From contig OZ020592.1 of NCBI GenBank assembly GCA_963971535.1, positions 121,929,784 to 121,993,783 on the forward strand: 64,000 nucleotides of DNA, given 5' to 3'. The stretch's first letter is position 1, and each line of letters opens with the position of its first letter. Below, in pieces: positions 46,201 to 49,200 of this stretch. Source of the stretch: Notolepis coatsorum. Its lineage: Eukaryota > Chordata > Actinopteri > Aulopiformes > Paralepididae. The translations under genes and the position numbers were made by a program. The notes beneath the pieces are model-generated. The model worked only from the letters and a program-made list of their open reading frames with translations, did not search any database and was not told the DNA's origin.

Positions 46201-49200
46201 GAAAGATACATATCCTTTAACACATTCAGTGCCAACGACGAGATTAGTCGGCTTAACTCGCCATGCGTTGAGTGCCAAGGCCTGAGAAAAAACGAGAAAA
46301 CTCGTTTTTTAATCGTTATTTCTTTTATTAGCAATATCCATTCATTTTTCATCCATCCAGCCTGACGTTATCATTGGGAATGGGTCTGAGCTCGAAATGG
46401 GCAAATACCGCCACCTATCGTCTCCGGGATGGTATTGCACATCATTGGATTGGATTGGCTGGGAATGTGCATCGAAAAAAAGGCCGGTCCGGGGTTTTCC
46501 CTTCTCTGGCAAGCAGTATCTGTTACCACATTCACTGGGGAGGCTGGGAGCAGCTTTCGATTATGTGTTTTGGACTATAACGTTGGATCAATAAACGCGA
46601 TCAATATTTGGAATGGCGATCAGGAATTGGATTAATCTTTTTGCAGAACATCTGATGTGAGGTAAGGACTCTATTTTACCAGTTTTGGGTTAATCAGATG
46701 TTTTTTTCACAGCGATCACAACGTGTGTGTGTGTGTGTTCGTAACGTTAGCGCTAAGCACGGCATGGATAATAGATTTTTCAGCCCGCTTCTCTAGCGTG
46801 CATAAGTACACATTATACTATCGATAATCTAGCGTTTATTTGAAAACGATTCATAAATCAGCCGAAAAATTACAACGTGTTTTGTGTATTCCACTAAAGC
46901 GCTATTATCGCGGAATTTCTCTGGAATTACTAGAACTCTCCAAAACTATACTTGTATTCAAAACGGTATAAACGGTATTTACTATTTCTTTCACTATTTG
47001 GGCACTTTTACACAATTCCTGTGAGTCTATGGAACACCTCTGTAATTTTTTTTTTCAAAAAAATTCATTGTTTTGTATTTCTAATCAAGTACTCAAAAAC
47101 AGCATTTTTCTACCTCAAGATCTTAAGCCGTTTTGAGGCTGGGCTCCAACCACTGTGTGGCCTGGTGCCAACTGCCACATCAACTGCCACATTATTATGC
47201 AGCTGAGAAATCTCCGACATCACAGATATGCACATTTTCAGATGACTCAGTTCAGTGAGGGTGAATATTGTGAGAGGAGAATTGGAAGAATGCGCCAATA
47301 TGAGAATTAGAGACATAGATCCTATTAGCTAGGAAACAATGCTAAACACTGAAAAAGGCCATTTATAAGATAGTTCCCCTTTAAGATATAGTTTAAGCCT
47401 TCGCAAATGTCCCCGACCTCCCATTGACTTCCTTATTGGCACAGTAGCCCATATATGGTCAAAGGGGCGTGGCACTGAATGTGTTAAGAGGCCTGTCTGT
47501 GTTGCTAGGTGGTGTACTGCTTCCTGACTTCCTGTCTGTGTTGCTAGGTGGTGTACTGCTCCCTGACACACTTCCTGTCTGTGTTGCTAGGTGGTGTACT
47601 GCTCCCTGACTTCCTGTCTGTGTTGCTAGGTGGTGTACTGCTCCCTGACACACTTCCTGTCTGTGTTGCTAGGTGGTGTACTGCTCCCTGACTTCCTGTC
47701 TGTGTTGCTAGGTGGTGTACTGCTCCCTGACACACTTCCTGTCTGTGTTGCTAGGTGGTGTACTGCTCCCTGACACACTTCCTGTCTGTGTTGCTAGGTG
47801 GTGTACTGCTCCCTGACACACTTCCTGTCTGTGTTGCTAGGTGGTGTACTGCTCCCTGACACACTTCCTGTCTGTGTTGCTAGGTGGTGTACTGCTTCCT
47901 GACACACTTCCTGTCTGTGTTGCTAGGTGGTGTACTGCTCCCTGACACACTTCCTGTCTGTGTTGCTAGGTGGTGTACTGCTCCCTGACTTCCTGTCTGT
48001 GTTGCTAGGTGGTGTACTGCTCGCTGACGGACTTCCAGCAGACGGTCTACCAGACGGTCCTGGAGTGTGAAGACGTCTCCTTACTGCTGCTCTCCTCGGA
48101 GAAGTGCGGCTGCCAGAGTGGACGTGTCAGGAGGAGGTGCTGCTACAAGGTAGGGCTGAGCCCAAACGTTCGGACCTTCGGACCTTCGTTCGTTACGTTG
48201 GCATTCGAATTCTGAATCAACATTTGAATTCTTAATTTTTAATAAAAAATTCTTTATGTGTCTATTCATTCTGTTTAAACCAATGGGGTTTTTCTTCACA
48301 GTTGCAGATAAAGATTAGGCTACACTAATATTATAGTATTAAAAACTGATGAGTTATATTCATTAAAGAAAGTTGATTTAATAACAAAAAAGACTAATTT
48401 AATCAGATTAATCACTTTATTCAAATTGAGGATTTAGTTTGAGGATATGGCAAACTAATTACAATGAAGAATGACATTTGCTGTTATTTCCTACAACTTA
48501 AAAATGTGTTAGACAAAGATGCGTCTGTTTCTAAGCATGTTTCTACGAGATGAAAAGGGAGCAGCAAACCGTTGCATTTTATTTCAGAAAGCATCCATTT
48601 GAAAGTAAAACACAGCTTGTTGAGAATAGTTCATTTAATCTCTTTGCAAGTTGCTTGAGGGCAAATCCCTCGAATTAGAAGAATCATAACAAACTAAACA
48701 GAAAATTACTTTCTGTTGCATTGTATGAGATGTGTGAGTTTTATATGGATATAACTGTCTATAATTCTTTATGGTCTACATAAAAAAAAGTTTAAATGTC
48801 GTCGTCCCCCCCCCCCTCTGTTTTTGTTTATTTATTTATTTTTCACAAATTGGACACTGATTATCCCTTACATATACCACACAGCTTGGTTTGGCGCTGG
48901 AAAATAAAGTCTTTATTTTGGTCATAAACAATGAAAATGAGCCTTAACACAATGGGGACCAGCCACGAGTTAACTCGGGTTTCGGTGCCATGCGTTGTGG
49001 ACCAGAGCCACGAGTTAACTCGTGGCAAGTTGTTATTGTTTTATTCCATATTAATCACCATATCAACGTCCCCGATCGACTCTGCAGATCTACCCGCATA
49101 TCTGATTTCCGCAACATGCAATACCGGCCAGATCCTCTTAGGGGCGCCATCGCTCCACTGCAGTATCATTGAGGGCGAATGGGGAATTTTTTTTTAATGT

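Follow-up and report, generated by a model that had tools for sequence, protein, structure and literature searches.

Tandem copies of a 3' splice junction directly upstream of an exon in an SNF2-type gene of Notolepis coatsorum

In a 64,000-nucleotide stretch of the Notolepis coatsorum genome (GenBank assembly GCA_963971535.1, contig OZ020592.1, positions 121,929,784 to 121,993,783 of the forward strand; hereafter the window), the 3' splice junction of one exon of a gene of the SNF2 ATPase type is preceded by 12 tandem copies of itself. We refer to this exon as exon g, to its neighbors as exons e to j, and to the copied junctions as decoys 1 to 12. In the reading we favor, and hold to be probably correct, the array is a 'mirage'-type minisatellite that arose as a by-product of minisatellite mutation and is not a regulator, with splicing directed mostly to the real exon.

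Architecture and splice signals of the array

The array occupies positions 47492-47991 on the plus strand of the window and lies directly 5' of the real exon g junction, which stands at 48009. Units 1, 3, 5, and 12 are 39 bp long and the remaining eight are 43 bp long, and each of the 12 joins 17 bases from the end of the intron to 22 or 26 bases from the start of exon g. Tandem Repeats Finder (TRF) reports a repeat at 47492-48036 with a period of 43, 13.0 copies, and a score of 943, and likewise reports a period of 82. The exon starts offered by the decoys are 47509, 47548, 47591, 47630, 47673, 47712, 47755, 47798, 47841, 47884, 47927, and 47970, so that the junctions up to the real one follow each other at spacings of 39, 43, 39, 43, 39, 43, 43, 43, 43, 43, 43, and 39. 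When TTGCTAGGTGGTGTACTGCT was sought on both strands with up to three mismatches allowed, it matched exactly at all 13 junctions (the 12 decoys and the real site), all within 47502-48021, and 100 shuffles used as a control gave no match. The form common to the 13 junctions is ttgctag/GTGGTGTACTGCT, where the slash marks the exon boundary. Mean identity among the units is 99.2% over their 39 shared columns, in which only two sequence types occur, with a T in units 1 and 10 and a C in the other ten. The exact junctions and the spacings of 39 or 43 bear out an initial annotation that had proposed 12 tandem decoy copies of this splice site. That annotation had placed the array at 47489..48029; the repeat is indeed there, but its units start at 47492 and end at 47991. 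The exon copy, given as 20 bases, is longer, with 26 in the 43-bp units, of which 23 match exon g (22 in unit 10).

The copying extends to the splicing signals. From -20 to +3, the real site recurs without change in 11 of the 12 decoys, the exception being decoy 1. Scored with vertebrate base frequencies rather than MaxEnt, which applies to all splice scores given here, the same 11 decoys equal the real site (8.44) and decoy 1 reaches 5.07. Such a score does not by itself pick out acceptors: 191 AGs lie between 44500 and the end of exon g, and six of them, all outside the array, outscore the real site. Decoy 1 has nine pyrimidines among the 16 bases from -20 to -5, against 12 of 16 at the real site, and no yTnAy motif is found between its positions -45 and -15. 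The proposal that every unit carries a complete acceptor therefore holds for all units except the first. At the real site and the other 11 decoys, the sequence CTGAC, which fits the yTnAy consensus, places its A at -21 or -25, and at these sites no AG intervenes between CTGAC and the acceptor. CTGAC consists of copied exon codons (CTG ACg). Because the copied exon start contains this motif, each unit supplies a branch-point consensus to the next acceptor, and the array would thus string together 3' splice sites that are each self-contained, the real one among them. The presence of the consensus is observed and its use is what we infer; the CTGAC of unit 12 is likely to be the branch point of the real acceptor. 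Since decoy 1, which stands in the pre-array context, is weaker and lacks a branch-point consensus, the acceptor of the real exon may have been improved by the duplication.

Origin and growth of the array

That the array grew from the intron-exon junction itself, as had been suggested, is well supported by its sequence. The bases 5' of unit 1 read ...GTTAAGAGG and those 5' of the other units ...CTT, the 26 exon-derived bases of the 43-bp form remain recognizable, and a CC at the breakpoint is common to exon and intron. A single tandem duplication of 17 intronic and 26 exon g bases would yield a 43-bp unit and with it another 3' splice junction, and this one event accounts for the left-edge context, the exon match, and the shared CC. 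The founder unit was thus probably 43 bp long with 26 exonic bases. In the 39-bp form, four bases are gone after CTGAC and TTCC is kept; because the pre-array intron has GGCC instead of TTCC, the shorter form probably derives from the longer. A 4-base loss would produce the 39-bp form, and expansions by monomers and by an 82-bp dimer would then give 12 copies that are 99% alike; the alternation of 39 and 43 bp in units 1-6 points to the dimer. Homogenization affects the interior and spares the edges, in that most 43-bp units differ from the real exon at three of 26 positions and the left flank of unit 1 is its own. The units are nearly identical to one another yet share three fixed differences from the exon, which points to an older founder that had already diverged when it recently expanded. 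In this account, the likeness of the units is seen directly and the order of events is deduced from it.

Copies of an exon junction were found in the window at exon g only and at none of the five other exons when both boundaries of the six were probed (22 of 30 bases for boundary probes, 20 of 26 for exon ends). We rejected a general attraction of minisatellites to splice sites, as four of 12 sites, the array included, lie within 40 bp of a repeat (P 0.57 against local density; 30 repeats, merged by hand from TRF output). A search for relatives elsewhere gave 71 pattern matches in genome_contigs, none of them confirmed, and no exact match in viral_contigs.

Premature stops and the choice of splice site

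The intron between exons f and g is in phase 0, and reading from exon f into any of the 12 decoys leads to an early stop, in agreement with the original proposal. The stop is a TAG for the 39-bp units (decoys 1, 3, 5, and 12), a TGA inside the array for decoys 2, 4, and 6-10, and the TGA at 48068 in exon g for decoy 11. Use of unit 12, which is in frame, would end at the TAG that closes the intron at the real acceptor (48006-48008). A transcript is exposed to nonsense-mediated decay (NMD) when its stop precedes an exon junction by more than 50-55 nt; the 12 stops lie 79-602 nt before the g/h junction at the end of exon g, so that even the smallest distance, 79 nt, exceeds this bound. When reading starts at the first unit, all 8190 possible orders of one to 12 units are likewise poisoned. 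Among 2000 arrays of shuffled units, 23.6% also give 12 stops out of 12, with a mean of 10.7. Poisoning therefore comes with the unit itself. Moreover, because a phase-0 intron here ends in TAG, an in-frame copy stops by the next TAG, and the stops need no selection. The further claim that array length tunes ERCC6L2 output through NMD is not supported, as shuffled units do as well in nearly a quarter of cases, although such tuning may occur.

The choice among the junctions can be approached through exon length. Exon g measures 141 nt from the real site, against 180-641 nt from the decoys, and is flanked by introns of 3584 and 4111 nt. Splice sites that are closest across the exon are reported to tend to be chosen between long introns (PMC9225289). 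With long introns on either side and no shorter exon on offer, exon definition would most likely pair 48009 with the donor at 48150 in most transcripts. Purine-rich motifs speak on the same side, with seven GAR triplets in the 141 nt of exon g and none in the 500 nt of the array. Leakage, if any, would go to the nearest decoys, 12 and 11, whose products NMD would be expected to remove. Folding gives no hint that RNA structure conceals the decoys, since the 681-nt region does no better than its shuffles (z +2.25, with 19 of 20 shuffles folding at least as well).

Several points weigh against this preference for the real exon. For alternative 3' sites overall, the same source describes the upstream site as preferred, and where two sites are of similar strength and long introns flank the exon, this bias is reduced, not reversed (PMC9225289); the decoys may consequently compete seriously. 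Eleven decoys equal the real site from -20 to +14 (decoy 10 to +13), which leaves the sorting entirely to more distant features. Enhancer content is gauged here by a count of purine motifs only. Repeats of the mirage type, according to one report, could serve as cryptic sites (PMC3087553), and NMD targets could be missed by plain reverse transcription PCR (RT-PCR). Splicing mostly to 48009 is what we predict from the DNA sequence.

The most substantial rival is that the decoys act as poison acceptors, used often enough, and each time as an NMD target, to lower the output of the gene. The position of all 12 stops speaks for this, as do the 11 acceptors that score as the real one does and carry CTGAC without an intervening AG, and an intronic 38-bp variable number tandem repeat in TERT has been reported as linked to splicing (PMC11830802). 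Chance, however, readily supplies such stops, proximity across the exon would favor the 141-nt form, and amphioxus arrays of the same kind are suggested in two papers not to disturb splicing (PMC3087553, PMC3902484). We regard poison acceptors as unlikely, though they deserve more weight than any other alternative. In its strongest form, this proposal has unit number set the output: identical poison acceptors, grown from the junction of the exon and served by a branch point that was copied from coding sequence, would act as a copy-number rheostat by which output falls as units are added. Such a rheostat seems to us improbable; if real, it would make minisatellite mutation a heritable means of tuning a DNA-repair ATPase.

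Unit number itself rests on the assembly sequence and may be off. Short, near-identical units are prone to miscounting, and one amphioxus array appears to be aberrantly assembled in the draft genome (PMC3087553). That the number here was inflated or collapsed by assembly is nevertheless very improbable in our judgment, since 500 bp fits within one long read and the ACAC motif and one C/T site partly tell the units apart. Still less credible is recursive splicing through a zero-length exon, in which CTAG/GTGGTG would act first as an acceptor and next as a donor; a second splice would then correct decoy use, and the mRNA would be normal. CTAG/GT is present in all 12 units and AG/GT at all 13 junctions, but a recursive site calls for an acceptor that abuts a good donor, and the donor here is poor: TAG/GTGGTG scores 3.16, against 5.22-10.85 for six real donors, and a score of 3.0 or more is reached by 15% of the 4032 GTs tested on the plus strand.

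Whichever junction is chosen, 11 decoys share the sequence of the real site from -20 to +13 at the least. With the sites thus locally equal, a single locus sets position in the intron, transcription order, and exon definition against one another. If natural length variants exist, the spliceosome's choice between equivalent 3' sites could be studied as a titration.

Host gene, neighboring features, and known relatives

Exons e-j were located by eye (Table 1). Joined, they leave frame 0 open for 242 codons, and the exon f donor after 44424 agrees with the initial annotation. Their translation matches SNF2-rel_dom (E 6.5e-20), and the best solved-structure matches are an 8he5 chain named 'DNA repair protein', RAD26, and ERCC-6. 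On these domain and structure matches, the host gene is an SNF2 ATPase of the ERCC6/RAD26 group and putatively ERCC6L2. Further pieces of the SNF2 fold lie near 7191 and near 36357 (DEAHKIKN), the latter matching SNF2-rel_dom at 22.9 bits, below the 24.9 cut-off. Given the open frame and the matches of the joined exons e-j, the part of the gene seen appears intact despite the array.

Table 1. Exons of the host gene and representative parts of the array (window positions)
Feature	Position	Strand	Remarks
Exon e	43098-43165	+	placed by eye
Exon f	44217..44424	+	208 nt, last codon complete; donor AGG/GTAGGT
Unit 1	47492..47530	+	39 bp, left edge, flanked by the pre-array intron; exon start 47509, acceptor weaker
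Unit 2	47531..47573	+	typical 43-bp unit, probable founder form
Unit 12	47953..47991	+	39 bp, decoy nearest the real site; exon start 47970
Intron end of real site	47992..48008	+	same 17 bases as every unit
Exon g	48009..48149	+	141 nt, phase 0; donor at 48150
Exon h	52261..52377	+	next exon; g/h junction sets NMD distance
Exon i	53063-53182	+	placed by eye
Exon j	54272-54343	+	placed by eye

Exon h is flanked by minisatellites at 51295-52254 and 52388-52572, which end 6 bp before its acceptor and begin 10 bp after its donor; their units hold CTACAG and GTTAACC, and no copies of the exon h junctions were found. Elsewhere in the window, a 60-bp repeat at 24999-25176 (three copies) is open as a 20-residue repeat inside the open reading frame (ORF) at 24829-25194, with no Pfam match. 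Reverse-transcriptase-like ORFs of one kind lie on opposite strands at 22864-24321 (+; RVT_1, 104.1 bits) and 20525-21094 (-; 27.3 bits, below the 29.6 cut-off), and by eye a further 3' piece of this kind is at 50469-50795, with no Pfam match. A transposase-like ORF at 15357-16451 (-) matches DDE_Tnp_1_7 (E 1.9e-61), presumably of the piggyBac type.

The array belongs to a known kind, as amphioxus mirages and a rainbow trout irak3 repeat have already been described. 'Mirages' in amphioxus consist of intron-exon boundaries that are repeated in tandem, splice signals included, in variable number, with Adh3 and the globins BflGb6 and BflGb9 as cases and TnC and PGBD5 also cited (PMC3087553, PMC3902484). 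Here, all 12 tandem units likewise include the intron-exon boundary. Data on Adh3 and RT-PCR of the globins are taken there to suggest no interference with splicing (PMC3087553). As in our array, the Gb6 units hold the 3' end of an intron and the start of an exon and are homogenized inside the cluster and not at its edge; unlike ours, they are 150-160 bp long and number six and three in two haplotypes, and the Adh3 units, at 10-72 bp, span the length seen here (PMC3087553). AG/GT splice signals are described for many, not all, of the amphioxus repeats, whereas here they occur in every unit.

In trout irak3, exon 5 is directly preceded by four repeats of its initial 15-17 nt; the copies, four to five in number, are more degenerate than ours, and the sections available tie no splice product to them (PMC6763605). 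A table in that paper lists for irak3 intron 4 a motif of about 40 bp that starts with GTAGAAACC and ends, in one of the two genes, with TTKCTAG (PMC6763605). Although the text does not assign it, this motif is, judging from its sequence, probably the junction repeat. If so, TTKCTAG/GT stands at the boundary in both fishes; two cases may be chance, yet they may help to show from which junctions such arrays start.

Other systems are more distant. The minisatellite of human 6-16 (IFI6) multiplies donors, not acceptors. The model of intron gain of Rogers shares with our case the tandem duplication of a segment with AG/GT, but there an exonic segment is duplicated to create a new intron, whereas here an existing 3' junction is multiplied and no new intron is evident (PMC4974935). 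Variable tandem repeats at exon-intron boundaries in human segmental duplications are also described as possible sources of new introns (PMC2812944). Compared with the unit numbers reported for amphioxus Gb6 and trout irak3, that of the N. coatsorum array is larger.
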